Positions 1-31,035 of a DNA stretch of 41,251 bases are shown here, piece by piece. Position 1 is the stretch's first letter. Every line of letters starts with the position of its first letter. The translations under genes and the position numbers were made by a program. This stretch comes from Oscillospiraceae bacterium (GTDB lineage: Bacteria; Bacillota; Clostridia; Oscillospirales; Ruminococcaceae). The stretch lies in the NCBI GenBank assembly GCA_016288755.1, contig JAEELE010000027.1:1-41251 (forward strand), in the 5' to 3' direction. The notes below the pieces were generated by a model. It saw only the letters and a list, made by a program, of their open reading frames with translations, did no database searches and was not told the origin of the DNA.

Positions 1-93
1 CTGCTGCGGATTGCCCTGCTCGTGCAGATATTCCAGAATGCGCAGGAACGCGAGCCCGGTCTGATAGCCCGCTGCGGCTTCGTTTTTTTCCAT
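1..93 (-). CDS. 5' part of an unidentified gene, possibly a regulator (partial)
   Basis: Thirty-one codons are visible from an ATG at 93 leftward to the window edge. An AAGGAG ribosome binding site lies 7 bases upstream of the ATG, so the start is well supported. The peptide begins MEKNEAAAGYQ and continues into a helical stretch around FLRILEYLHEQGNP. That pattern resembles the first helix of winged-helix or WYL-type regulators, which are common next to CRISPR and other defence loci, but 31 residues are too few to assign a family. The gene diverges from the tiny-ORF cluster that starts at 208, the layout of a regulator next to its target. The product is unknown; the start call is firm. Confidence 0.5.
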   Translation of the reverse strand, partial: MEKNEAAAGYQTGLAFLRILEYLHEQGNPQQ

Positions 94-182: not shown

Positions 183-207
183 GATATACAGAAAGGGGGG
201 ATACACC

Positions 208-237
208 ATGACGATCACGATCACGATCTCCATCTGA
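208..237 (+). CDS. Tiny ORF 1, Thr/Ile repeat peptide (9 aa)
   Basis: This frame encodes MTITITISI. A strong purine-rich site (GAAAGGGGGG) precedes the ATG by about 7 bases, and a promoter sits directly upstream. Alternating Thr and Ile gives either a beta-strand peptide or an attenuator-like leader peptide comparable in composition to the thr operon leader. It is the first of a chain of similar frames and too short for homology. Translation is suggested only by the ribosome binding site and by recurrence of the same peptide type at 399 and 472. Confidence 0.5.
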   Translation: MTITITISI

Positions 238-367
238 GCGGCACTGCCGAATCTGACATGAAAGCGAGGTGAGACAAATGAAGATCACTGTGACTGTGAA
301 TGACGACGTACTGCTGGACTGGGACTCTGACAAAAAGGACGATGACAACGACGACGCGGACGAAGAA
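231..367 (+). repeat. 137-nt direct repeat, copy 1
   Basis: Bases 231-367 and 507-643 are the same 137-nt block with three mismatches. The block carries the end of a Thr/Ile peptide frame, a linker with the next ribosome binding site (AAAGCGAGGTGAG) and the conserved part of the Asp-rich peptide. The first 43 nt (231-273) occur a third time at 425-467. High identity points to recent tandem duplication. Confidence 0.9.
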
Positions 368-466
368 CCGGACACACAGGGCGAAAGGGGGTGCGCGCAT
401 GATTACCATTACCATCACAATCTCCATCTGAACGGCACTGCCGAATCCAATATGAAAGCGAGGTGA
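278..466 (+). CDS. Tiny ORF 2, Asp-rich small protein (62 aa)
   Basis: The protein starts MKITVTVNDDVLLDWDSD, a short alternating beta-strand, followed by a very acidic run of Asp and Glu and then a His/Asn-containing tail. The ATG at 278 has GCGAGGTGAG upstream; a GTG at 269 is in frame but overlaps that site. The first 30 residues are nearly identical to tiny ORF 5. Here the frame reads on through the next repeat unit, while copy 2 stops soon after the acidic run, so the tail is probably a by-product of rearrangement. It overlaps tiny ORF 3 in another frame. The acidic run could bind cations or a basic partner. Function unknown. Confidence 0.5.
   Translation: MKITVTVNDDVLLDWDSDKKDDDNDDADEEPDTQGERGCAHDYHYHHNLHLNGTAESNMKAR
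399..431 (+). CDS. Tiny ORF 3, Thr/Ile repeat peptide (10 aa)
   Basis: This frame encodes MITITITISI, almost the same peptide as tiny ORF 1, from partly different codons (ATT ACC ATT ACC against ACG ATC ACG ATC). GAAAGGGGGTG precedes the ATG. Keeping the Thr/Ile alternation while the codons differ favours a translated peptide over a plain DNA repeat. It lies within tiny ORF 2 in a different frame. Confidence 0.5.
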   Translation: MITITITISI

Positions 467-467
467 G
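425..467 (+). repeat. 43-nt linker repeat, third copy
   Basis: Same linker as 231-273 and 507-549: the stop of a Thr/Ile frame, the CGGCACTGCCGAAT core and the AAAGCGAGGTGAG ribosome binding site of the next frame. Confidence 0.85.
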
Positions 468-471
468 CAGG

Positions 472-513
472 ATGCTGAACACGATTACCATTACCATCAA
501 AATCGACATCTGA
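472..513 (+). CDS. Tiny ORF 4, Thr/Ile peptide (13 aa)
   Basis: This frame encodes MLNTITITIKIDI, the third and most divergent Thr/Ile peptide. The site AGCGAGGTGAGCAGG lies just upstream of the ATG. The Thr/Ile core is kept while a charged end (KID) has appeared. Confidence 0.5.
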   Translation: MLNTITITIKIDI

Positions 514-643
514 ACGGCACTGCCGAATCTGAAATGAAAGCGAGGTGAGACAAATGAAGATCACTGTGACTGTGAATGACGACGTACTGCTGGACTGGGA
601 CTCTGACAAAAAGGACGACGACAACGACGACGCGGACGAAGAA
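507..643 (+). repeat. 137-nt direct repeat, copy 2
   Basis: Second copy of the block at 231-367 with three mismatches. After the shared GAAGAA the two copies diverge completely, which marks the duplication edge. Confidence 0.9.
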
Positions 644-655
644 ATGACAATCTGA
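554..655 (+). CDS. Tiny ORF 5, Asp-rich peptide (33 aa)
   Basis: The frame starts MKITVTVNDDVLLDWDSD, runs through KKDDDNDDADEE and ends MTI. It matches the first 30 residues of tiny ORF 2 exactly; the one base change is synonymous. The ribosome binding site is the repeat-borne GCGAGGTGAG. The 33-residue version may be the intact form, since it stops straight after the acidic run. No family recognised. Confidence 0.55.
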   Translation: MKITVTVNDDVLLDWDSDKKDDDNDDADEEMTI

Positions 656-674
656 ACAGAAAGGGGGTGAACCT

Positions 675-725
675 ATGCTGAAACTGATTCTGTTCCTGAT
701 CAAGCTGAAAAAAGCGCTCCACTGA
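675..725 (+). CDS. Tiny ORF 6, cationic hydrophobic peptide (16 aa)
   Basis: This frame encodes MLKLILFLIKLKKALH, preceded by AGAAAGGGGGTGA about 6 bases before the ATG. The peptide is hydrophobic with four lysines and no acidic residue, the composition of a membrane-active helix such as small type I toxins or phenol-soluble modulins. Its charge complements the Asp-rich peptides beside it. Activity is not shown; the reading rests on composition and the ribosome binding site. Confidence 0.5.
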   Translation: MLKLILFLIKLKKALH

Positions 726-752
726 GAGCCGGATGCAAACGGAGGCAAAACC

Positions 753-806
753 ATGAACGAAACCAACTCGCCGGAGCAAGAAAGAAAAACGCATAACACA
801 AATTGA
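753..806 (+). CDS. Tiny ORF 7, polar peptide (17 aa)
   Basis: This frame encodes MNETNSPEQERKTHNTN, entirely polar, preceded by ACGGAGGCAAAACC. Its stop codon directly abuts the terminator stem at 807, so it closes the chain. No function can be inferred. Confidence 0.45.
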   Translation: MNETNSPEQERKTHNTN

Positions 807-841
807 CCGCAGGGCGCGTGCAGCGTTCTGCGGTTTTTTTT
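807..841 (+). terminator. Terminator of the tiny-ORF cluster
   Basis: CCGCAG (807-812) pairs with CTGCGG (828-833), followed by eight T residues. It lies between the rightward tiny-ORF transcript and the leftward CRISPR transcript and should keep them apart. Confidence 0.85.
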
Positions 842-869: not shown

Positions 870-2288
870 TTTTCAAACCCCGAGTGGGTGTGAGCTGCAG
901 CGTCCTTGCGATTGTTGCACCAATCGGTCTTCAGTTTCAATCCCCGTGTGGGTGTGAGCTGCAGCCTCAATACAATTATTGAAAATAAGCAGAAGAAGAT
1001 GTTTCAATCCCCGTGTGGGTGTGAGCTGCAGCGGTACCGATATGAAAAAGATTCTTGAAAGCATCCTAGTTTCAATCCCCGTGTGGGTGTGAGCTGCAGC
1101 CAGCCGAGACGCACTACGAGAAGCGGCTGAGAGCGGTTTCAATCCCCGTGTGGGTGTGAGCTGCAGCCCTTACAGTAGTATTCCGAAAGCCGCAAACAAT
1201 TCCAGGTTTCAATCCCCGTGTGGGTGTGAGCTGCAGCCCGATAGCACAGACGGCCGCAGGGTAGAAGAAGTTTCAATCCCCGAGCGGGTGTGAGCTGCAG
1301 CTCTACATCGTGCACACTGTCAGCACTTGCCTCGGCGTTTCAATCCCCGTGTGGGTGTGAGCTGCAGCCGAAGCCAACACATCCGCATTCAACAGATTCA
1401 TGTTTCAATCCCCGTGTGGGTGTGAGCTGCAGCTATTTATGGAGGGATTCATTATGATGAACCTCAGTTTCAATCCCCGTGTGGGTGTGAGCTGCAGCGT
1501 ATACGACGGTCAAGAACGTGATGAGTCTCGAGTTTCAATCCCCGTGTGGGTGTGAGCTGCAGCGCAAAGTTGTGTGCTATGAGGTCAAGCAGGGTGTTTC
1601 AATCCCCGTGTGGGTGTGAGCTGCAGAAGCTCGGATGCCACTATTCAAGGATCATCGCGTTTCAATCCCCGTGTGGGTGTGAGCTGCAGCAATAAGGAGG
1701 ATTACCGTGGCAAACAAAATCATGCGTTTCAATCCCCGTGTGGGTGTGAGCTGCAGCGCTTCTACGACGATACTCAGGATATTTGCGTTTCAATCCCCGT
1801 GTGGGTGTGAGCTGCAGCGCGAGCATCACGCATTACTCGCAGACAAACGACAAGTTTCAATCCCCGTGTGGGTGTGAGCTGCAGCTCAAGCGCATCCTGG
1901 ACGACCTCAACAGCAAAAGGACGGTTTCAATCCCCGTGTGGGTGTGAGCTGCAGCGTGCAGCTGTACACATCCGCCGAGGTCTATGCAGTTTCAATCCCC
2001 GTGTGGGTGTGAGCTGCAGCGATGAATGCTATGATTACCCGCATGTCCACCATCGCTGTTTCAATCCCCGTGTGGGTGTGAGCTGCAGCGATTATATTGA
2101 TAAAAAACTCTCTCAGCAATAAAAAAGTTTCAATCCCCGTGTGGGTGTGAGCTGCAGCCAGAGATCTGTTCTCGACTATCGTCGGCGTCGGTTTCAATCC
2201 CCGTGTGGGTGTGAGCTGCAGCTGTCGACCGATTGGCACTTTGTCAAATTTGACAAGTTTCAATCCCCGTGTGGGTGTGAGCTGCAGC
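870..2288 (-). CRISPR. CRISPR array, 22 repeats and 21 spacers, transcribed leftward
   Basis: The repeat is 32 nt. On the plus strand it begins GTTTCAATCCCC and ends GTGAGCTGCAGC. Repeats start at 870, 934, 1001, 1069, 1136, 1206, 1270, 1337, 1402, 1467, 1532, 1596, 1659, 1726, 1787, 1854, 1924, 1989, 2058, 2127, 2191 and 2257. Spacers are 29-38 nt, all different. Read on the minus strand the repeat ends ATTGAAAC, the usual 8-nt 5' tag of mature type I/III crRNA. The repeat at 870 is degenerate (three changes), as expected for the leader-distal end, and a perfect promoter lies at 2472-2500 to the right, so the leader is on the right. The repeat at 1270 has two changes and that at 1596 has one. 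Cas6 at 13107 is the likely processing enzyme. No cas1 or cas2 is present in the window, so new spacers would need adaptation genes elsewhere. Confidence 0.97.
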
Positions 2289-2471: not shown

Positions 2472-2500
2472 ATTATATCACATTTTTGGGGCAATGTCAA
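2472..2500 (-). promoter_or_regulatory. CRISPR array promoter
   Basis: Read on the minus strand: TTGACA (2500-2495), 17 bases, TATAAT (2477-2472), a consensus sigma-A promoter. The stop codon of the CARF-HEPN gene (2499-2497) lies inside the -35 hexamer, so gene end and array promoter overlap and the array may also receive read-through. Confidence 0.9.
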
Positions 2501-4230
2501 TAACTCCGGAAGCCCCTGAACCGGAAAACAGAGGTTTTTTCCACCGTGCCCTGCTCCGATATCCGCTCCTGCGATTCGCGCTCCGAGCAGCTGTAGACCA
2601 CAGGGATGCGCCGCTTTTTCAGCGCGCTCACGACCTGATAGCACAGCCCGAATTCGCCCATGCACATCACCGCGGCAGGCTGCTCCGCCGCGATCTTCGC
2701 CGCGCAGTCCTTCGCCAGCTGCCGGATATCTGCCTCACCGAGCTCCGGCGATACATCCGGGAACGGCACGTCGACAATGCGGTCTGTCCCGCAGAGCGCC
2801 GCTGCCGCCTGCTTCTGCGCCGCGTCCCAGCCCTCCGAGGGGTGGTTGGAGAAATTGACAAACACGCCCGTCCGCGCGGCACTGATCTGCTTCTGCGCCG
2901 CTTCATCCGTCAGAATCTCACCGCGCCGCTGCCTGATATCGTCAAACAGCGCCTTCGCCTGCTCATAGCATTTTTCCAGATAATTTATATCCGGCTTGGC
3001 ATTCGTATCCCTGTTCATGCCGAAATGGTCCATGAAATTCCGGCGGTTCAGCAGCTCGCCGACAAACGTGACCGCCTGCGGTTCGATATGGCTGTAGATT
3101 TTGATGAACAGCGGGAGATATTTCTCATCCGAGGGGTAAAAGTTTGATACATCCTGCTTTACCCCGCGCGTCTTATTCTCCTCATTGAGCGCACTCAGCG
3201 CACATTCGACCGCCCCGCGCAGCCGGATATCCTGACAGTCCGCGCCCGGTGCGTAGGTATCGCACAGGAAGGTGATGATGGTCTCGCGCAGTGCCGAATA
3301 GCCCTGCATCAAATGCCCCTTGCCGATATACCACTGAACCGCCGCCATGCCCTCCGCAAAGAAGCCCTGCTCCGCCGTGATATCGCGCACCGAGTCATAC
3401 ACATGCTCGATCAGCTCGTCGAAGAAGGCTGCCTCCTTCTCATAGCTGCTCATTTCGCGCGACTGCCGCTCCGCCTGCTCCACGCGCAGGTCTGCCATAG
3501 TGTTCCGCACACGCTTCGCAGAGTCGGAAATGCAGTTTTTCCCGTGATCGCCGCTTAGACAGAGCAGCAGATGCGTGGAAAGCTCGCTCAACTTACCGGC
3601 AGCACGTTTTGTGTTGTTCATTGCCCTGCGCTCCTCCTCGGGCATGCTGCTCTGCTGGCTTTTCACGATATCCAGAATCTCCGCGGCATTGCCCGTGCGG
3701 ATAAAGCTGTGCGCCGCGCCCGAGCATGTCATGATGCGCTCGTAGATTTTCAGGTCGATGACCTTCGGGCGCTTCGTGACATTGTCATAGGGTCCGTAGA
3801 AGATGTGGTCGACCGTGATCTGCTTCATCTCCTTCGCATAGCTCATCAGCGGGAAAAACAGCGCCGGCATCGACCGGAAGCTGTGCGTGATATCAAAGGT
3901 GACGCAGTCGTCCTTCTCCATCGCGTCATACATCGTGTGGAACATGTTCAGCAGTCCGGCGCGGCTCTCGTTGAAGTCGATGCCGATCTCCCGGATGACG
4001 CTCCTGTCCGGATACAGCCGCAGAATGCGCGCAAGGAGCGCATCCCAGTGCTTCGCCCGCGCCTGCTCCGTCAGAAAGAAGATGATCCGGTCAAAGCCGA
4101 CGCCCTGCTTCTGCAGCATTTCGAGCAGCGCCTCCTGAATATAGCAGGTCGTGCACTCGAGCCCCTCATAGCGGTAGGTCATTTCCTCATAGGCGCCCGT
4201 GCCGAGCAGCGCCATATAGATGTTTGCCAT
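2497..4230 (-). CDS. csx2: CARF-HEPN RNase, Csx2/TM1812 type, with extra C-terminal domain
   Basis: This 577-residue protein is a predicted cyclic-oligoadenylate-activated ribonuclease. The N-terminal CARF domain (about 1-190) begins MANIYMALLGTGAYEEM and contains DITHSFRSMP, as in the Csx2/TM1812 family (TIGR02221). The HEPN active site is RNFMDH (R397, H402), an RX4H motif. From about residue 454 an extra 124-residue domain starts VFVNFSNHPSEGW, contains MGEFG and SER, and ends FRFRGFRSY. It resembles small stand-alone proteins in other type III loci, and its NFS-HP start recalls Csx15/Csx16, which are linked to cyclic oligoadenylate removal; that relation is inferred. The start at 4230 has AAGGGAG upstream. 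An upstream in-frame start at 4326 falls inside the promoter and is excluded. The gene is divergent from the cas operon. Confidence 0.85.
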   Translation of the reverse strand: MANIYMALLGTGAYEEMTYRYEGLECTTCYIQEALLEMLQKQGVGFDRIIFFLTEQARAKHWDALLARILRLYPDRSVIREIGIDFNESRAGLLNMFHTMYDAMEKDDCVTFDITHSFRSMPALFFPLMSYAKEMKQITVDHIFYGPYDNVTKRPKVIDLKIYERIMTCSGAAHSFIRTGNAAEILDIVKSQQSSMPEEERRAMNNTKRAAGKLSELSTHLLLCLSGDHGKNCISDSAKRVRNTMADLRVEQAERQSREMSSYEKEAAFFDELIEHVYDSVRDITAEQGFFAEGMAAVQWYIGKGHLMQGYSALRETIITFLCDTYAPGADCQDIRLRGAVECALSALNEENKTRGVKQDVSNFYPSDEKYLPLFIKIYSHIEPQAVTFVGELLNRRNFMDHFGMNRDTNAKPDINYLEKCYEQAKALFDDIRQRRGEILTDEAAQKQISAARTGVFVNFSNHPSEGWDAAQKQAAAALCGTDRIVDVPFPDVSPELGEADIRQLAKDCAAKIAAEQPAAVMCMGEFGLCYQVVSALKKRRIPVVYSCSERESQERISEQGTVEKTSVFRFRGFRSY

Positions 4231-4297
4231 GCTTTCCGTTCTCCCTTCGCGCCCGCAGCGGCAGAAAGCCCCGCAGGCGTTGATATTCTGTACTCTC

Positions 4298-4326
4298 AGT
4301 ATAGCATATTTTCCCGGCAGTGTCAA
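4298..4326 (-). promoter_or_regulatory. Promoter of the leftward CARF-HEPN gene
   Basis: Minus strand TTGACA (4326-4321), 17 bases, TATACT (4303-4298) with TG before the -10. It is back to back with the rightward cas promoter 40 bases away. Confidence 0.88.
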
Positions 4327-4366: not shown

Positions 4367-4395
4367 TTGACATTTTTCATTCATCATGCTATAAT
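4367..4395 (+). promoter_or_regulatory. Promoter of the cas operon
   Basis: TTGACA (4367-4372), 17 bases, TATAAT (4390-4395) with an upstream TG (TGCTATAAT). Transcription would start near 4402 and cover all genes to 13823. No inverted-repeat operator is obvious between the two divergent promoters. Confidence 0.9.
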
Positions 4396-4462
4396 AGTTT
4401 TATCAGTTTCTGATGCATCCGGTCGAAACGGCACGGAAATCCCGAACGGAAGGTGTTGGTGC

Positions 4463-6091
4463 ATGAAACGGGTCATTATCACAAATCTCAGCATACTCAG
4501 GGAGGGCGCACCCGATCTGCCCTATGAATCGGAATGCGGAACGGTGGTCGGCGCACAGACCAATGACGCGCCGGTCAAGGCGCTGCTGCTCGAAGCCGCA
4601 CAGTCCGCGCCGCACTCCCCCGTCACGGTCATTGCCGTGACCACCGCGGAGGCACAGACCGCCTTCACCCGGCTCGGCGAGCTGCTGCAGGCATTCGCCG
4701 AAAAGCTGAGCCTTCCCCCGCCCGTGCTCCTGCGCGCCGATATCACCGGGCACTCGCTCGCAGACGCCGTGCAGCGCATCGTGCGGCAGATTCCGCCCCA
4801 TGCCGAGGTCTGCATCGACACGACCGGCAGCTTCCGCAACGCAAGCTATATTCTGCTCGCGGTCGTCCGCATTCTGGAATACAGCGGCATTCACTGCGTC
4901 AAGGCGGTCTATTCCAACTATCACGCCGAACCGCGCCACATCGAGGACGTCACGAACGCCTACCGGCTCTTCGATCTGATCAACGCCGCAAACAGCTTCA
5001 CCGCATTCGGCAATTCCACGGAGCTCGAGCGCTTCTTCCGGGAGAAGGACACCCCCGGCATCCAGCGGGTCGTCGCCGCGATGAAGGAATTCTCCGAGGC
5101 AGTCGCGATGTGCCGCACTGCCGGTCTCGACCGCATTCTCGCGGAGATGAACGAGAGCCTCGCCGCGATGGACGCGATGACGCCGACCACAGAGGAGGAG
5201 GCGCTGTTCTGCAGCATTTCCGGTCTGATCCGGCAGAAATTCGGCATTCCGTCCGCCTGCGGCAAGATCGAATATCCCGAGATCATCCGCTGGTGCCTGA
5301 GCAACCAGATGATCCAGCAGGCGGTGACGATCTATATTGAGAAAATCCCAGCCTTCCTGATGGAAAAGCAGTATTTCACAGTGTCCGAAGCGATTTGCAC
5401 ACGCGCGGAGGAAAAACGCGGCGTCTATGATTTCGCCTATCATGTGCTGTATAAAGAATTCATGCAAATGCAGTCTCCGATTGCATTTTTTTTGCAGCAT
5501 CTGACAGCAGCACAGCGCAGAGCCGTCGCCGCTGCCGCAAGCCCCGCGGAGCTGCCGGAGGAATTTCTGTCAGCGCTGCACCCGACGATCCGGCTGAGCC
5601 TGAACCGCATCATCCGGCTGAAAAACCGCCTCTTCGGCGAAGACGGCAAGCGCCGCGCAGATGCCAATGACGCACTGCCGCCGGAGCTGAGCCGCCTGAA
5701 GGGCAAGCTCGCTGCGAATGCGCCGGATTTCCTCAATCAGCTGCAGAACCTCCAGCCGCAGGAATATCATTATCTTGAGGCAGAGGCGCGCCCCGATGCA
5801 CCGGTGTATCGGTCGCTGCAGCTCAACACGATCGAGAATCTGGAGGCGATTCTCGGGACACAGACAGACTGTCAGGTTCTGCGCAGAATTCCGGACATGC
5901 AGCGGATTCTGCGCGATTATTATTATGTCAAGGAATATCTGCGCAATGTGATCAACCATGCGGGCAGTGCGCCCTCCGATTCGGAGGAGAACGCAGCATA
6001 TTTCCGCGCGCACGGATACTGCACGGACGAGAACATGCGCCTTGCAGCAGCCAGCAGCGTTCTGACGGAAGCGCTGGAGCATCTGATTTGA
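4463..6091 (+). CDS. CARF-HEPN RNase, Csx1/Csm6-like
   Basis: The 542-residue product starts MKRVIITNLSILREG and has an N-terminal CARF-like domain (about 1-190) with DTTGSFRNASY at residue 119, the equivalent of the conserved D-T/H-G-FR patch of CARF RNases. A long helical middle follows. The C-terminal HEPN motif is RNVINH (R494, H499), an RX4H active site. It should cut RNA when Cas10-made cyclic oligoadenylate binds the CARF domain. The start at 4463 has GGAAGGTG upstream, and any earlier start would lie inside the promoter. It is the first gene of the operon, 15 bases before cas10. It is only distantly similar to the neighbour at 2497, so this is not a simple duplication. The exact subfamily is uncertain. 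Confidence 0.82.
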   Translation: MKRVIITNLSILREGAPDLPYESECGTVVGAQTNDAPVKALLLEAAQSAPHSPVTVIAVTTAEAQTAFTRLGELLQAFAEKLSLPPPVLLRADITGHSLADAVQRIVRQIPPHAEVCIDTTGSFRNASYILLAVVRILEYSGIHCVKAVYSNYHAEPRHIEDVTNAYRLFDLINAANSFTAFGNSTELERFFREKDTPGIQRVVAAMKEFSEAVAMCRTAGLDRILAEMNESLAAMDAMTPTTEEEALFCSISGLIRQKFGIPSACGKIEYPEIIRWCLSNQMIQQAVTIYIEKIPAFLMEKQYFTVSEAICTRAEEKRGVYDFAYHVLYKEFMQMQSPIAFFLQHLTAAQRRAVAAAASPAELPEEFLSALHPTIRLSLNRIIRLKNRLFGEDGKRRADANDALPPELSRLKGKLAANAPDFLNQLQNLQPQEYHYLEAEARPDAPVYRSLQLNTIENLEAILGTQTDCQVLRRIPDMQRILRDYYYVKEYLRNVINHAGSAPSDSEENAAYFRAHGYCTDENMRLAAASSVLTEALEHLI

Positions 6092-13969: not shown

Positions 13970-15718
13970 TTATTCTGCCGAAAAGGTCAGGTGATAGCTG
14001 TAATTATAGCCATCATAGACGATGTAAGGCTCCGTGCTGTTGACAGTGTCGCTCTTTTCGCCGTATTTGGTTGTCCACTCCAAGACCTGAGCACCCCATG
14101 TGTAGTTTATGTAGGTCACGCCTTCATCTGTGACCGACGTGATCTTCACGAGCTTCATTTTCTCCGCGCCCTCGATCTCCTGCGCGCTTTGCCGCCAGAC
14201 GCCGTCTTCCGATTCATAGAAAATGTCGCCCTCTTTGACCGTGAACTCCTCGGATGATTCGCTGCGTTGGATGAACCTGCCGCCTGAGAAAACGCCGTAG
14301 GCGGCGGTGACGGTCATCTTTGCGGTTTTCTGCTCCAGCGGAGGAGGCGGAACCGCTGCCTGCATCAGCGCACGCTTCATGAGGGTCAGATCGCGCGCGT
14401 CGATCTTCTGATCGTGATTGAAGTCGCCGTTGATCCAGTTGTTCAGCCCGGCGCCCGGCTCGCTGACCAGCCATTTCACCGTCGCCACAATATCCGAAAG
14501 ATCGAACTGCCCGTCGCTGTTGACGTCGCCGAGGAAGGTCGGGAGCTTGTTCTTGTCCCTGAGACGGAATTCCACATCCCATGTATCTTCGGTATATTTC
14601 GTGACCGTGCAGCCGTCCGCGGGCAGATAGAGATTTTCCGGCAGCGCTGACGTGTCAAGCCCGAACTCTATGCTTTTTGCGGATTTCGCCATCGCGCCCA
14701 GATGATTGACATACGGGTTGGTTTTGAGCGACCAGTCGATCGGCGAATAGTCGGGCGGGTCGCCTTCATAGTCGTACTCAAGATCGACCGACAGCGCGAA
14801 GCTGTTGTCGGGGTAATCGGCAAAGTCGATCAGCGCGCCGGTATCGTCATCCACGAGCCGGATGCGCGTCTCGCCGCTGAACAGAGCGGTATTTCCGGCA
14901 TCGATCACGATGAAATCGCCGGATATCTTCTGCACCGGCTCCCCGCCGCCCATACTTGTGCAGTCCCAGCGGATCTGCACCGGCGTATAGGCTGCCTCCG
15001 AAGGCACGCATTGGTAGACATAGATCATCTGATTGGAGCCGCCCACGAGCATTTCGCTGTTGTCGCGCACGGTGCTGCAATAGGAGGTCATACAGAGCTT
15101 TGCGCCCTTACACTCTGCTTCCTCCCATTGGGTGGGTGTGGCGATGCCCTCACTGAACGCAAAGACCATATATCTGCCGTGTGTGCTGACAGCGCCGTTC
15201 GCCTTCTCATACTTGTCATACTCAGCAAAGCAGTCGGGCAGCCAGCTGTAAATATCGGTCTCCGTGACGTTTTTTGCGTCATCCGACGCAAAGGAATAGC
15301 TGCGGAGCACCTCTTCGCCGTTCATAAAGGACACCGAAAGCGTGCCTGCCGCCTCTGCCTGCCAGACGCACACCTCAAACCGCTTCACGGTACCCTTCGT
15401 GCTCTCGTCAGGGGAATAATATATTTCGCTGCTGAGATGCACAAAGCCTTCACCCTCTGCGTTGATCGGGTCCTCGATCTCCGACGCAGGGAGATTGTCG
15501 GGGACAGTCTCGCGGAACACGGTGCAGATCACACCGTCCGCGGCATAGGTATAGCCGTGCATATTGCGGAAGTTCATTGCCTCCTCATAGCTCGTCGGGA
15601 CCCATTCGGGCAGTGCGGCGGGGGCAGTGTCATCGGCAAAAGCCGGCAGCGCGGCGGGGAATGCAGCCAAAGCGGCTGCACATGCGGAAAAGAATGCTGT
15701 CAGTCGGATCGGTTTCAT
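13970..15718 (-). CDS. Secreted protein with internal dockerin module
   Basis: The 582-residue precursor has a signal peptide (MKPIRLTAFFSACAAALAA, cleavage near PAFADD). Residues about 30-390 form an extracellular domain of unknown family. A dockerin-like module at about 397-455 has two EF-hand loops: GDVNSDGQFDLSDI and GDFNHDQKIDARDL. A C-terminal domain of about 120 residues follows, unlike most dockerin proteins where the module is last. It is probably exported and attached to a cohesin scaffold by calcium-dependent binding. The start at 15718 is supported by AAAGGAG 8 bases upstream. No catalytic domain is recognised. Confidence 0.82.
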   Translation of the reverse strand: MKPIRLTAFFSACAAALAAFPAALPAFADDTAPAALPEWVPTSYEEAMNFRNMHGYTYAADGVICTVFRETVPDNLPASEIEDPINAEGEGFVHLSSEIYYSPDESTKGTVKRFEVCVWQAEAAGTLSVSFMNGEEVLRSYSFASDDAKNVTETDIYSWLPDCFAEYDKYEKANGAVSTHGRYMVFAFSEGIATPTQWEEAECKGAKLCMTSYCSTVRDNSEMLVGGSNQMIYVYQCVPSEAAYTPVQIRWDCTSMGGGEPVQKISGDFIVIDAGNTALFSGETRIRLVDDDTGALIDFADYPDNSFALSVDLEYDYEGDPPDYSPIDWSLKTNPYVNHLGAMAKSAKSIEFGLDTSALPENLYLPADGCTVTKYTEDTWDVEFRLRDKNKLPTFLGDVNSDGQFDLSDIVATVKWLVSEPGAGLNNWINGDFNHDQKIDARDLTLMKRALMQAAVPPPPLEQKTAKMTVTAAYGVFSGGRFIQRSESSEEFTVKEGDIFYESEDGVWRQSAQEIEGAEKMKLVKITSVTDEGVTYINYTWGAQVLEWTTKYGEKSDTVNSTEPYIVYDGYNYSYHLTFSAE

Positions 15719-15893
15719 GGGAAACGCTCCTTTCTCGGGTATCGGTCGGATGTTTGGGGACATCTGCTTATGCATACGGAAAGCTCTGCCAAATCCCCAC
15801 ATTCTGACGATCAAAGCAACTCATATTTGCATGTTTTCACAAATAGTCGTGCTGATGTTGAATATTCTTGTGCCTAAAAAATGACATTTCCGC

Positions 15894-15922
15894 TTGCCTG
15901 TTGCGGGAATATTTGCTATAAT
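15894..15922 (+). promoter_or_regulatory. Promoter of the Ig-repeat exoprotein gene
   Basis: TTGCCT (15894-15899), 17 bases, TATAAT (15917-15922) with an upstream TG. It lies 82 bases before the start codon at 16004. Confidence 0.8.
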
Positions 15923-16003
15923 AGGAGTAAGGCGGTCATCCGCTGCCGCCGAGCCGAGCGGGAAACCGCGATCAACATATCCGCACAGAAAGGATGGGAA
16001 ATC

Positions 16004-19000
16004 ATGACACATTCCAAAACACGATCACTCCTTGTCAGGCTGCTGTGCGCAGCATCCGCACTGGCAGCCGCAGCACTTGCCGTACCGGCAGTCAGCGTCT
16101 CCGCCGACGAGGGCTACGGCATCTATGTCTGCGGCGTCGAGGTCACCGAAGAAAACCATGAGGACATTCTCGGGGACGGCGTCTTCTCCTATAACACGTG
16201 GTGGAATCAGCTCGATATCAAAGGTGATGCCTCTGCATCCGCGACCGACTACTACCCCATCATCAAAAACACCCGCCAAAATCTGAGCATCTACTTTGAC
16301 GACTGCACGTTCACGCACAGCGCAGCCAACTATCCGATTCTTGATGTCCGTGCGGACACCGAGATCACCGGAAGCTGTGTGACGATGAATCACACGGATG
16401 GCAGCGCGGTCTTTGTTGAGGACGCCGAGCTGGCGATCACGGACAGCGAAATGGATCTCACCGCCGCCAGCTGCGGCATCGTCGCCACGGGCAGATCCAC
16501 AGATGTGCTGATCCTCGAGCGCGCCGATCTGCGCATCACGGGCGACACAGCTGTTGCAGGCTTCAACGGCGGCATCGTGCTCACCGACACCGTCGTGCTG
16601 GAGCCGCAGTTCTATCAGATCCGCATCGGCGAGATCGTCAGCGACGGAGCAACAGTCACCTCTCTTCAGACGAGCGCCAGATACGCGCTCCGGATAGACT
16701 GCGTTGATGTGACGAAGCGCAACTGTTCGGATATTCTCGGCAACGGCGTTTTCTCCTATGATCCGGCGGAAAAGAAGCTGACGGTCAACGGCAGCTACAC
16801 GACGGATGAAGATGAAGCAGAGATCATCGAGAGCCTCATCGACGGTCTGACGGTCAATATCGCTTCCGATTCCGTGCTGAAAGCCGAAGCCGGCACTGCC
16901 ATGTGGTTTTCCGGAAAGACGACTGTGACCGGAAAGGGAAAGCTGACGATCCATGCGAACGAAAACGGCATTTTTGTCAACAGAGGCAATCTGACGCTCG
17001 AAAACCTCACCGCCGACATCAGCGCATCGTCCGGCATTGCCGGCGCTGCATCAAATGAAAGTCTGACAATCGATCACTGCAATCTCGATCTCAGGACGCA
17101 TACCGGCGCGGTCACAGATTTCCAGTACGGCATCGCGCTCAATGACTGCCATATCTCCAGCTCCTATGATGCGATCATCTCGCTGACCGCACCTTACAGC
17201 ATCAGTACCGCGGGCGGCATCCCGATCAGCAATCTGACGATCACAGAAGATGCGGTTGAATATCCGCTCAGCATCAACGGCACGACCGTCACCAGCACCA
17301 ATGCAGCCGATATTCTCGGCAACGGCACTGCGTCCTACATCCATGCCGACAAGACGCTGACCATCAACGGGCTGAACATCACCAGCTCGTCTGCCTTCGC
17401 CATCATCGACAGCAGTATCAACGGTCTGACGATCGACGTCGCCGGCGACTGCACGATCAGTGCAAAGCAGGCGATGGAATTCAGCGCTGACGCAACGATC
17501 ACCGGCAGCGGCAAGCTGACGATCCAAAACGCCGACTATCTCGGCATCTATGTCCGTGAATGCCAGCTGACGCTCGATCACGCAAATATTGACATCACAA
17601 GCTGCAGATACGGCATCTGCGGTCAGCCGTATGAAGAGGAGCTGGTCATCGACAGTTCCACCGTGCATGTCAGCAGCACGAACGGTGCGATCTGCGATTT
17701 CGGATACGGCATCGTGCTCGAAAACTGTGAGATCACCTCGCCCGCCGGCGCAGGGGTCTTCTATGTGAGCAGATACGGCGGAGAGGATGAAGAGGGCGAC
17801 GACTGTGGCGAAGAAGACCCCGAACTGGCATCCGACTGGGAATCCATCCTCGTTTCTAAGGACGGCGCAGTCGCAACGGAGGTCTTCATCGAGCCCGAAA
17901 AGCCGAAGATCACCGACCAGCCCCACAGCGCAACGCTCCCGATCGGCAATACCGCAAAATTCTCCCTGAGCGCCACGGGCACCGGACTCAAATATCAGTG
18001 GGAGTACAATGCCGGCGACGGCTGGAAGGTTTCCAACGGTACCGGCGCCAAGACCAGCGAGCTCAGCATCGCGGTCACCGCGGGCAGACACGGCTATAAG
18101 TACCGCTGCCTCGTCACGAACGCAGCAGGCGCAAAAACCTATTCCAGCGCCGTCACGCTGAAGGCAAAGACCGTCATCAGCCAGCAGCCGGCAAGCAAGA
18201 ACCTCAGCATCGGCGAAAAGGCAGCATTCACCGTCAAGGCAACCGGCGCAGGGCTCAAATATCAGTGGCAGTACAACAAGGGCGAGGGCTGGAAGAATTC
18301 CAACGCAGCCGGCGCCCAGACGAACACACTCACCATCAACGTCAGTGCAGGCTACAACGGCTACAAGTACCGCTGCGTGCTCACCAATGCGACCAACGAT
18401 CAGACGGCATCCTCCGCGGCGACCCTCACCGTCAAGACCAAGATCACCAAGCAGCCCGCAAGCGCTAATCTGCCGCTGGGCGAGACCGCAAAGTTCACCG
18501 TCACGGCAACCGGCGCAGGGCTCAAGTATCAGTGGCAGTATAATAAGGGCGACGGCTGGAAGAACTCCGGCGGCACCGGCGCGACGGCCGCGACCCTGAG
18601 CATTCCGGTCACGTCGGGCAGAAACGGCTGGAAGTACCGCTGCGTCATCACCGATGCAAACGGCAAACAGACGACCTCCTCCGTTGCGACGCTCACCGCA
18701 AAGACCGTCATCACCGCACAGCCCAACGGCGTCCGCGCGGCGATCGGCGAGACCGCGAAATTCACCGTCACGGCGACCGGCGCGGGACTCAGCTATCAGT
18801 GGCAGTACAACTCCGGCGACGGCTGGAAGAACTCCGGCGCGACCGGCGCGACGACCGCAACGCTGAGCATCAACGCGAAGAACACCTACAACGGCTGGAA
18901 GTACCGCTGCATCATCACCGACGCGAACGGCGTCAAGACGACCTCCTCCGTTGCAACGCTGAAGATCAAGACCAGCATCACCGCACAGCCTGCCAATGTC

Positions 19001-19240
19001 TCGGCATCCGCCGGTGCGACCGCGAAATTCACGGTCAAGGCGACCGGCTATCAGCTGACCTATCAGTGGCAGTACAACAGCGGCTCGGGCTGGAAGAATT
19101 CCAACGCAACCGGCGCCACGACCGCAACGCTCTCCATCAACGCAAAGACGAGCTACAACAACTGGCAGTACCGCTGCGTCATCACCGACGGCAACGGCGG
19201 CACGACCACCTCTGACGCTGCCAAGCTGACCGTCAAATAA
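16004..19240 (+). CDS. Large secreted protein with three repeat modules and five Ig-like domains
   Basis: The 1078-residue precursor has a signal peptide (LLVRLLCAASALAAAALA, cleavage near VSVSADEG). Residues about 33-630 hold three related modules, each opening with a pattern like V-T-x-x-N-x-x-D-I-L-G-x-G-x-x-S-Y (near 40, 230 and 425), followed by short repeated strands that suggest a right-handed beta-helix. Residues about 632-1078 are five Ig-like repeats of about 88 residues, each with the core Y-Q-W-x-Y-N and Y-R-C. The protein ends with the fifth Ig domain; there is no sorting motif or dockerin. It is likely an adhesin or surface-binding protein; the ligand is unknown. GAAAGGATG upstream supports the start. 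Confidence 0.83.
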   Translation: MTHSKTRSLLVRLLCAASALAAAALAVPAVSVSADEGYGIYVCGVEVTEENHEDILGDGVFSYNTWWNQLDIKGDASASATDYYPIIKNTRQNLSIYFDDCTFTHSAANYPILDVRADTEITGSCVTMNHTDGSAVFVEDAELAITDSEMDLTAASCGIVATGRSTDVLILERADLRITGDTAVAGFNGGIVLTDTVVLEPQFYQIRIGEIVSDGATVTSLQTSARYALRIDCVDVTKRNCSDILGNGVFSYDPAEKKLTVNGSYTTDEDEAEIIESLIDGLTVNIASDSVLKAEAGTAMWFSGKTTVTGKGKLTIHANENGIFVNRGNLTLENLTADISASSGIAGAASNESLTIDHCNLDLRTHTGAVTDFQYGIALNDCHISSSYDAIISLTAPYSISTAGGIPISNLTITEDAVEYPLSINGTTVTSTNAADILGNGTASYIHADKTLTINGLNITSSSAFAIIDSSINGLTIDVAGDCTISAKQAMEFSADATITGSGKLTIQNADYLGIYVRECQLTLDHANIDITSCRYGICGQPYEEELVIDSSTVHVSSTNGAICDFGYGIVLENCEITSPAGAGVFYVSRYGGEDEEGDDCGEEDPELASDWESILVSKDGAVATEVFIEPEKPKITDQPHSATLPIGNTAKFSLSATGTGLKYQWEYNAGDGWKVSNGTGAKTSELSIAVTAGRHGYKYRCLVTNAAGAKTYSSAVTLKAKTVISQQPASKNLSIGEKAAFTVKATGAGLKYQWQYNKGEGWKNSNAAGAQTNTLTINVSAGYNGYKYRCVLTNATNDQTASSAATLTVKTKITKQPASANLPLGETAKFTVTATGAGLKYQWQYNKGDGWKNSGGTGATAATLSIPVTSGRNGWKYRCVITDANGKQTTSSVATLTAKTVITAQPNGVRAAIGETAKFTVTATGAGLSYQWQYNSGDGWKNSGATGATTATLSINAKNTYNGWKYRCIITDANGVKTTSSVATLKIKTSITAQPANVSASAGATAKFTVKATGYQLTYQWQYNSGSGWKNSNATGATTATLSINAKTSYNNWQYRCVITDGNGGTTTSDAAKLTVK

Positions 19241-29296: not shown

Positions 29297-31035
29297 CAGA
29301 TGGTCAGCGTGAGATTGTTCATGCCGAGCGAATAGAAGTATTTGGTCTCGCGCACCAGATGCATCACGCGGGAGATGCCGATGTGCGCCCCGGGCTCGTC
29401 CTGTGCCTGCATCTCCATGTATCTGACCGGGTCGAATTTCTGACAGTTGTCACGGAAGCGCAGCACCGTGCCGTCTCCGCCGATCATGATTCGGACATCA
29501 ATGCTGTTGTCGCGCTCCGGACGGAAGCCGTGTGCGATGATGTTCTCCGCCATTTCCCGCACACAGAGCGCGATCATCGCGCAGACCTTCGGGGGCAGCC
29601 CCTCCGACGCGCAGAACACCGACGCCGCCTCGGCAACGCCCTGCACCTGTGCAGGCTCGGTCACCGAGAGCTCAAGACAGTGCTCCTCGCCGGTTCCGAA
29701 ATCGCGGCGCAGCAGCATGAAGCACCCGCGGCGCAGCGGTCGGCGCAGCAGCACGATCAGACAGATCAGCAGGAGCGTCAGCAGCTCACCGGCTGGATAG
29801 CCCATCCAGATGCCGCTGACCCCGAACATCCGGCTGAGGACAAAAGCCGCGAGCGCGATCAGCACGAAATTCTGCATCACCGAAATCATCAGCGACACCG
29901 CGACCTGCCCGACGCCCTGATAGAAGTTTTTGAAGCCGGTGTTGAGCGAGCAGGGCACCAACGAGAGTACAAAGATCCGCAGACCGGTCACGGCGAGCCC
30001 CTTTGCAGCGGGGTTCTCGAGGAACATCGTCACGAGCGGGTCTGCCGCGAGCAGCACAATGCCCGTCACCAGCCCGCAGAGCACGATTCCCATGCGCACC
30101 ATGATCTTCATGAGCTCGTGCAGGGAGGCGCGGTCACGGTCGCCGTAGAACATCGACGCGAGCGTCAGCGTGACCGACGCAATGCCCGAGCTGAACGCAT
30201 AGCAGAGGTTGCCGACCGTCGAGATCACCGAAAACGCGGCGACTGCCAGATTGCCGCCGACCGAGAGCAGGAGCTTGTTGAGCACGAAGGTCAGCAGCAC
30301 GAGGCTGACCTGATTGACGAGTGTGGGCACGCCGTGCTGGAGCAGGCGGATCGCCGTGCTGATGCGGACCGATTTCGGACGCAGCTTGAAGATGCAGTCC
30401 TTGCGGAAGAAATAGGGAATGCCGACCGCGAAGGCGATGTAATAGCTTGCCGAGGAGGCAAGCCCCATTCCGAACGTGCCCTGATGCACGACCAGCACAT
30501 TGAGCAGATTCAGCGTGATGTTGCTGCCGATCAGCGCGAGCACCGCCTTGACCAGCCGGGAGCGGATGCCGGACATCTGCATATACGGCACCATAATCTG
30601 TGCCGCAATGAAGCCCGGCGCACCGACGATAAAACCGCGCAGATAGTCGCGCGTGAGCCCGAACACGGGATTCTGCGGGGAATTCTCCCCCGCGCCCAGC
30701 AGCGTGCAGATCGGGTCGGTGAGCAGCAGCACAAGGATCACGCCGATCACCGAGACGGACGCCGCCATCACGATCGAGACCGTGAAGCAGGCGTTTGCGC
30801 GCTGCTTGTCGCCGCGCCCGAGCGCCTTTCCGCACATCACCTGAATGCCGGCTGCCAGCATGCTGCCGAAAGCCGCAAACACCAGCAGGACCGGCGACGC
30901 CAGACCGTATGCCGTCATGGAATCGACGCCGAGAAAGCGCCCGATCATGATGCTGTCGACCAGCATGCACAGCGTAACGGTCATTGCCGAGAGGATCTGC
31001 GTCACCAGCATCCTGCCGAACAGTTTTTTGATCAT
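29296..31035 (-). CDS. MATE efflux transporter fused to an HATPase domain
   Basis: Residues 1 to about 450 form a 12-helix MATE transporter (MLVDSIMIGRFLG, MLAAGIQVMCGKALGRGD, LVNQVSLVLLTFVLNKLL, GYPAGELLTLLLI). Residues about 455-579 are a cytoplasmic GHKL/HATPase domain similar to RsbW-type serine kinases: the N-box is CVREMAENIIAHGF, the next box VLRFRDNCQKFDP, and GAHIGIS the glycine loop. The D-x-G motif is DNC here. Typical MATE proteins end near 450. The ATPase part could couple export to phosphorylation or bind a regulator. The promoter is at 31093-31121. The start at 31035 is the first Met before the first helix. Confidence 0.87.
   Translation of the reverse strand: MIKKLFGRMLVTQILSAMTVTLCMLVDSIMIGRFLGVDSMTAYGLASPVLLVFAAFGSMLAAGIQVMCGKALGRGDKQRANACFTVSIVMAASVSVIGVILVLLLTDPICTLLGAGENSPQNPVFGLTRDYLRGFIVGAPGFIAAQIMVPYMQMSGIRSRLVKAVLALIGSNITLNLLNVLVVHQGTFGMGLASSASYYIAFAVGIPYFFRKDCIFKLRPKSVRISTAIRLLQHGVPTLVNQVSLVLLTFVLNKLLLSVGGNLAVAAFSVISTVGNLCYAFSSGIASVTLTLASMFYGDRDRASLHELMKIMVRMGIVLCGLVTGIVLLAADPLVTMFLENPAAKGLAVTGLRIFVLSLVPCSLNTGFKNFYQGVGQVAVSLMISVMQNFVLIALAAFVLSRMFGVSGIWMGYPAGELLTLLLICLIVLLRRPLRRGCFMLLRRDFGTGEEHCLELSVTEPAQVQGVAEAASVFCASEGLPPKVCAMIALCVREMAENIIAHGFRPERDNSIDVRIMIGGDGTVLRFRDNCQKFDPVRYMEMQAQDEPGAHIGISRVMHLVRETKYFYSLGMNNLTLTI

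Follow-up and report, generated by a model that had tools for sequence, protein, structure and literature searches.

Seven tiny ATG frames are found on the plus strand within positions 208–806 of the window (the whole stretch of 41,251 nucleotides analysed here, which is the first part of contig C47 in a 3.47 Mb assembly of 141 contigs), flanked by an extended −10 element (174–182) and a terminator (805–835). Tiny frames so strongly equipped with Shine–Dalgarno (SD) sites, in an operon-like arrangement, are far beyond chance expectation; the preliminary description had correctly spotted an unusual sequence feature, and we confirm that it is real. We infer that the operon is probably translated. 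As the best explanation we tentatively propose a genuine operon of micropeptides that is confined to one lineage and strongly translated, and whose products may associate as amphiphilic beta-strands, some of them acid-tailed.

Layout of the locus and its signals

The features of the locus are the following (SD duplex energies in kcal/mol).

1..93, minus strand: start of the divergent gene, 31 aa (MEKNEAAAGYQTGLAFLRILEYLHEQGNPQQ), truncated by the contig end
174..182, plus strand: extended −10 element TGATATAAT, read in the sequence
near 189, plus strand: putative transcription start, as expected from the extended −10 element
208..237, plus strand: frame 1, MTITITISI, 9 aa; SD −17.5
278..466, plus strand: frame 2, 62 aa, KITVTVND strand followed by an Asp-rich part, net charge −11; SD −17.7
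399..431, plus strand: frame 3, MITITITISI, 10 aa; SD −18.6
472..513, plus strand: frame 4, MLNTITITIKIDI, 13 aa; SD −17.7
554..655, plus strand: frame 5, 33 aa, KITVTVND strand followed by an Asp-rich tail, net charge −10; SD −17.7
675..725, plus strand: frame 6, MLKLILFLIKLKKALH, cationic and hydrophobic 16-mer, net charge +4 without His; SD −21.3
753..806, plus strand: frame 7, MNETNSPEQERKTHNTN, polar 17-mer; SD −9.5
203..367 and 479..643, plus strand: copies A and B of a duplicated unit, 93% identical
204, 398 and 480, plus strand: three copies of an 82-nt sub-unit
805..835, plus strand: intrinsic terminator with a 13-bp stem and a T run
870..2288, minus strand: CRISPR array, 22 repeat sites, outside the peptide operon

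All seven short frames of the preliminary description exist. Frame 2, which had been thought to end before the third frame, instead runs 62 codons to 466; it stays open through frame 3, which is nested in another register. The end of frame 5 (644–655, ATGACAATCTGA) reads MTI. It may be what is left of a Thr/Ile frame since deleted, which would hint at rearrangement among the units.

Near-perfect SD sites belong to six of the seven frames (duplex energies from −17.5 to −21.3 kcal/mol); the site of the seventh scores −9.5 kcal/mol. The same scoring gave −1.7 to −7.0 kcal/mol for ten further ATGs of the region, and in 40 stretches of the own genome 11 of 18,204 ATGs reached −17 kcal/mol. For cas genes in the window, energies calculated in the same way were −13.5, −3.2, −13.6, −15.2 and −17.6 kcal/mol. 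The SD core is identical in frames 2, 4 and 5; overall, more than one SD sequence type is present.

We counted frames of at least 8 aa with an SD site of −9 kcal/mol or better and compared the region with 1000 dinucleotide shuffles. Seven frames were observed; the shuffle mean was 0.65 and none of the 1000 shuffles reached seven. At the laxer cut-offs of −8, −7 and −6 kcal/mol, seven frames were present in 1, 4 and 19 shuffles per 1000. The reverse strand of the region has one or two such frames. A real-sequence control comprised the strands of the window and of 198 other loci, 2,796,940 bases in all, with 33 window-contained loci dropped. Its runner-up 620-nt stretch had four frames, which are probably real genes, since they are near-identical membrane-protein frames of 64 aa in a row; the maximum in the own-genome sample (40 stretches, 570,617 bases) was three. 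This excess of SD-strong frames over shuffles and real-sequence controls counts in favour of the micropeptide operon. Frame counts and SD sites are not independent, because positions 203–367 and 479–643 are 93% identical and the 82-nt unit is present three times, and this effect of duplication counts against it. The seven frames reduce to about four independent types (Thr/Ile strand, Asp-rich, cationic 16-mer and polar 17-mer). Four peptide types had been described before; that number stands approximately, with the correction that the alternating strand begins five frames rather than three.

The single promoter of the preliminary description is only partly borne out. The extended −10 element at 174 is perfect, but the window has ten sites with this motif (both strands), and the element is missing from a consensus promoter scan because its −35 region is weak. 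With ten occurrences and no good −35, the promoter is therefore likely rather than proven. Two head-to-tail copies of eight bases (ATGATATA) span the putative −10 (173–188). Each Thr/Ile frame is followed by a palindrome of 11 bases (CGGCACTGCCG), which has one further site in the window and five in the genome sample.

The single terminator, with its 13-bp stem, is present as described. Taken whole, the transcript is less well folded than its shuffles (z = +1.95, with 20 of 20 shuffles folding at least equally well), four transcript parts gave z values from +0.12 to +1.53, and the window has no Rfam match. Poor folding fits an open coding RNA and not a structured one. We count the terminator after the last frame, the poor folding and the lack of an Rfam match as support for the micropeptide operon. 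The same observations bear on the idea that the Thr/Ile (and Asp) peptides are attenuator leaders sensing amino-acid or charged-tRNA supply. Thr and Ile make up seven of the nine residues of MTITITISI, and the thr operon leader peptide of enterobacteria, including that of E. coli, is likewise short, Thr/Ile-rich and located after the promoter. Here, however, no structural gene lies downstream (the terminator is followed by the CRISPR trailer) and no attenuator fold is found, folding being no better than in shuffles for the whole transcript and its four parts. Attenuation is thus very improbable.

Since the window starts at the contig start, the divergent gene is truncated after 31 residues. 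Its SD site scores −8.5 kcal/mol. The 30 aa after Met have no match in Pfam, PHROG or NCBIfam, and among 30 genus genomes the gene was found in the own genome only. Weak family matches, re-examined in seven loci, did not fall at the start of any comparable frame, and no overlap with base 1 was seen in 40 own-genome stretches. From its spacing alone, the gene might be guessed to be the start of a winged-helix regulator.

A gene diverging from position 93 would suit leaderless signalling peptides of the kind known from the LCP/RopB class of Firmicutes, which are read by a receptor in the cytosol. LCPs are mostly 8 to 10 aa long with an SD before the ORF (PMC10518010). Two of the three Thr/Ile peptides (frames 1 and 3, with 9 and 10 codons and strong SD sites beside the divergent gene) resemble them; frame 4 has 13 aa. 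LCPs are highly hydrophobic, with mostly aliphatic and aromatic residues (PMC10518010), whereas Thr alternates in the Thr/Ile peptides of this locus and half of the positions in frames 1 and 3 are Thr or Ser. Further differences are the three copies and unrelated partners on what would be one mRNA. The Rgg C-terminal model TIGR01716, which in a control matched Lactococcus lactis (one of 14 control genomes), had no match in the own genome (assembly 94.7% complete), so no Rgg-type receptor was found there; the divergent gene, cut after 31 aa, has no family match either. A signalling role is decidedly unlikely.

Shared strand, possible selection and the cationic 16-mer

The pattern [IV]T[IV]T[IV] occurs within the first 11 residues of five of the seven frames (these five are not independent owing to duplication) and in none of 15,356 ATG frames of at least 8 aa from 40 stretches of the own genome, a difference that counts for the micropeptide operon. 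Both Asp-rich peptides start with KITVTVND, and therefore the alternating Thr/(Ile,Val) strand is common to them too.

Selection on the Thr/Ile peptide, as suggested in the preliminary description, fares differently in different copies. Copies 1 and 2 have four differing bases, all at third positions and all synonymous; assuming random substitutions, four synonymous changes have p of about 0.006. We count this pair for the micropeptide operon. Copies 2 and 3 have three differing bases, located in two codons, and all of them change the peptide. Between copies 1 and 3 seven bases differ, with three codons synonymous and two not. When the pairs 1/2 and 2/3 are pooled, four of seven changes are synonymous. 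The two Asp-rich copies have one synonymous difference in 90 bases. For the pairs 1–2, 2–3 and 1–3, differences number 8, 7 and 2 per 40 bases of spacer and 4, 3 and 7 per 27 bases of frame; spacer divergence is thus similar to frame divergence and not consistently greater. The peptide-altering changes between copies 2 and 3 and the spacers that diverge like frames count against the micropeptide operon. Overall, support for selection on the peptide is modest, and some of the data contradict it: the evidence is real for one copy pair and absent for another.

These data bear directly on the nearest rival to the micropeptide operon, namely that the frames are young proto-genes with no selected role, produced by recent duplication of SD-rich DNA, tolerated for a while and to be lost. 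The changes between copies 2 and 3 fit it, as do duplicates so recent that the Asp-rich frames are one base apart in 90, the out-of-register overlap of one frame with another, a frame perhaps ending in a truncated Thr/Ile frame, and searches that returned no relative. It is less easily reconciled with SD sites that are of more than one type and of which six rank among the very strongest when set against the genome sample, with a terminator directly after the last frame, and with one strand pattern written in different codons. We regard proto-genes as a possible but doubtful explanation.

The 16-mer of frame 6 could also be seen as a toxin acting on membranes, with the acidic peptides from the same mRNA as a neutralizing antidote. 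Its net charge of +4 faces −10 and −11 in the Asp-rich products, and it owns the strongest SD site. Its helical moment, however, is equalled by 23% of its own shuffles, a search of viral contigs gave no relative with the same N-terminal pattern, and the scheme gives the Thr/Ile peptides no place. Ldr and Ibs are tandem type I toxin families in which several tiny hydrophobic peptides arise from duplicated units. Tiny peptides from duplicated units are also seen here, with the differences that the locus would have one polycistronic mRNA with strong SD sites and that only one of its seven peptides is cationic and hydrophobic. A toxin with its antidote is, on balance, unlikely.

CRISPR surroundings and searches for relatives

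The cas genes beside the array fit type III-D, with matches to models of Cas10, Cas5_IIId, two Cas7_IIId, Csx19 and Cas6. The most degenerate repeat is located at 870, and the repeat ends in ATTGAAAC on the minus strand, an ending that we take as marking the crRNA orientation. The cluster is therefore at the trailer end of the array and not at the leader end. None of 20 spacers matches bases 1–841 at E 0.5. Among 30 genus genomes the repeat of this array is present in one, the own genome. Related Cas10 proteins were found in nine of 295 genomes, and the own genome is the sole one of its genus.

One other locus is informative on a possible link to type III-D. L082 (Cas10 48% identical) has an array of the same layout with a readable trailer side, and no cluster of tiny frames is present in the 1.4 kb beyond it. 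L081, with a closer Cas10 (54%), has no array in the stretch examined and hence is uninformative; the same stretch-wise absence of an array holds for L083, L084 and L085, so that recurrence beside III-D is judged from a single locus. No CRISPR link beyond position is seen. An accessory part of the neighbouring III-D system would explain why the cluster adjoins the array; the trailer-end position, the cluster's own terminator, the spacers and L082 all speak against such a role, which we consider most improbable.

Several other features of the surroundings were observed. The spacer at 1167–1205 shares 16 identical bases with window positions 30866–30881 (E 2e-4), perhaps a partial self-match. 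The product of the minus-strand gene at 2497–4326 is a CARF-HEPN protein of the Csx1 type whose C-terminal part is Csx20-like (PADLOC CARF_HEPN_CSX20, E 7.7e-73; Csx20, E 1.9e-24; NCBIfam Csx20 below the cut-off), and in L082 a stand-alone minus-strand frame near 14600–14980 resembles the Csx20 part by eye. A second Csx1/Csm6-like CARF-HEPN protein is encoded at 4367–6091 (plus strand), which gives the III-D locus two such effectors. Farther on, a 1119-aa protein with immunoglobulin-type domains (I-set, Ig_3) is encoded at 15881–19240 (plus strand), beside a dockerin protein at 13970–15814 (minus strand).

DNA similarity within the own genome placed the cluster at one site only. A DNA search of 100 relatives at E 0.01 gave matches in 13 genomes, the own included; the 13 matches in the 12 other genomes, 23–43 bases long, were taken as chance. 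The same kind of search of phages and plasmids gave none.

Searches with the 33-aa peptide in 30 genus genomes (E 1) matched six, including the own; the five other matches (E 0.006–0.87) sit inside open frames of 313–973 aa. The peptide had no match in phages, and its first 20 residues had none in phages and plasmids. PHROG 38052 (function unknown) matched residues 2–17 of the 33-aa peptide (E 0.005) and the 62-aa frame (E 0.029); this is a weak lead and could be chance. Neither frame had a match in NCBIfam.

Pattern searches gave a similar picture. An SD site followed by the Thr/Ile pattern was found in five of 247 family genomes, including the own. Two matches (G201 and G202) are starts of 296-aa and 271-aa frames; a third, in G023 of the same genus, lies at the C-terminal end of a 27-aa frame (MSALHTVQTIAGAIRIMPIITITIPSI) with ITITI, opposite a 153-aa frame, and is a weak lead. 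None of the four matches outside the own genome (these three and G230, judged by reading its DNA) is within a cluster of tiny frames. Among 30 genus genomes, Thr/(Ile,Val) runs closed by a stop codon were found at three sites, all in the own genome; a reversed control pattern matched two genomes, once in each. An SD site followed by KITVT was confined to the own genome among 297 family genomes.

In viral contigs, six pattern searches matched 0, 20, 34, 2, 1 and 0 stretches, with no relative among them; the one stretch matched in a single search belongs to a 133-aa frame. In genome contigs, 90 stretches matched (80 among the matches listed), and short frames were assessed from their peptides and the DNA preceding them. 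The scan for clusters likewise covered all 90, and no locus had more than four frames. A sequence-only model of the repeated unit, R1, matched 75 of 199 genomes at E 0.1, and its E-values are therefore too generous; the best three matches outside the own genome, read individually, were taken as chance.

With the queries used, then, no relative was found in the genus, family, phage, plasmid, viral and genome collections, and conservation of the frames did not appear in any collection searched. We count this against the micropeptide operon. Peptides so short are hard to find after divergence, so this absence is weaker evidence than it appears. In the open-access literature we found no account of such an operon, and the string MTITITI occurs there in four papers, all of them unrelated.

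Possible association of the products

The CRISPR, attenuator, toxin and quorum-sensing readings are all less supported than the micropeptide operon. Under the latter, transcription would start from one promoter near 174–188 and yield an mRNA of ∼650 nt with all seven tiny genes, its 3' end set by the terminator. The operon may have grown by duplication of a module made of a beta-strand micropeptide and a 40-nt spacer carrying the next ribosome site. Five products would then share an N-terminal strand, three of them bare (9, 10 and 13 aa) and two acid-tailed.

With such alternation, Thr/Ser come to lie on one face of the strand and Ile/Val on the opposite one, which is the standard design of a sheet-forming strand. 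Designed amphiphilic peptides with alternating polar and beta-branched hydrophobic residues are self-assembling beta-strands. The same residue alternation is seen here, with the difference that the peptides are operon-encoded together with acid-tailed versions and that their assembly is only proposed. Bare Thr/Ile peptides could stack into beta-sheets; acid-tailed versions might join those sheets and keep them soluble or restrict their growth. Alternatively, the acid-tailed versions might bind the cationic 16-mer from the same mRNA, which would make the 16-mer (+4) a possible partner or target of the strand peptides. We propose co-assembly because it is the simplest scheme that uses all five strand products. 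The alternating pattern is what suggests this step, and we hold it to be possible rather than probable. Nine-residue peptides may also be degraded fast, which counts against the micropeptide operon. No RiPP enzyme was found among the 19 window proteins searched with Pfam, which are part of the window's genes (the sequence begins at position 1).

It is conceivable, though rather unlikely, that the locus represents a new kind of multi-peptide system, in which bare strands, acid-tailed versions and a cationic membrane-type peptide are placed on one mRNA, so that assembly, capping and target would be encoded together and would have arisen as a tiny module was duplicated.

Annotation mostly passes over genes of 9 to 33 codons. 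The locus is a clean test case for whether such short peptides are made and selected, and for the way in which a micropeptide family expands by duplication. If the strands do assemble, assembling peptides and their capping counterparts would here be genetically encoded as one set.
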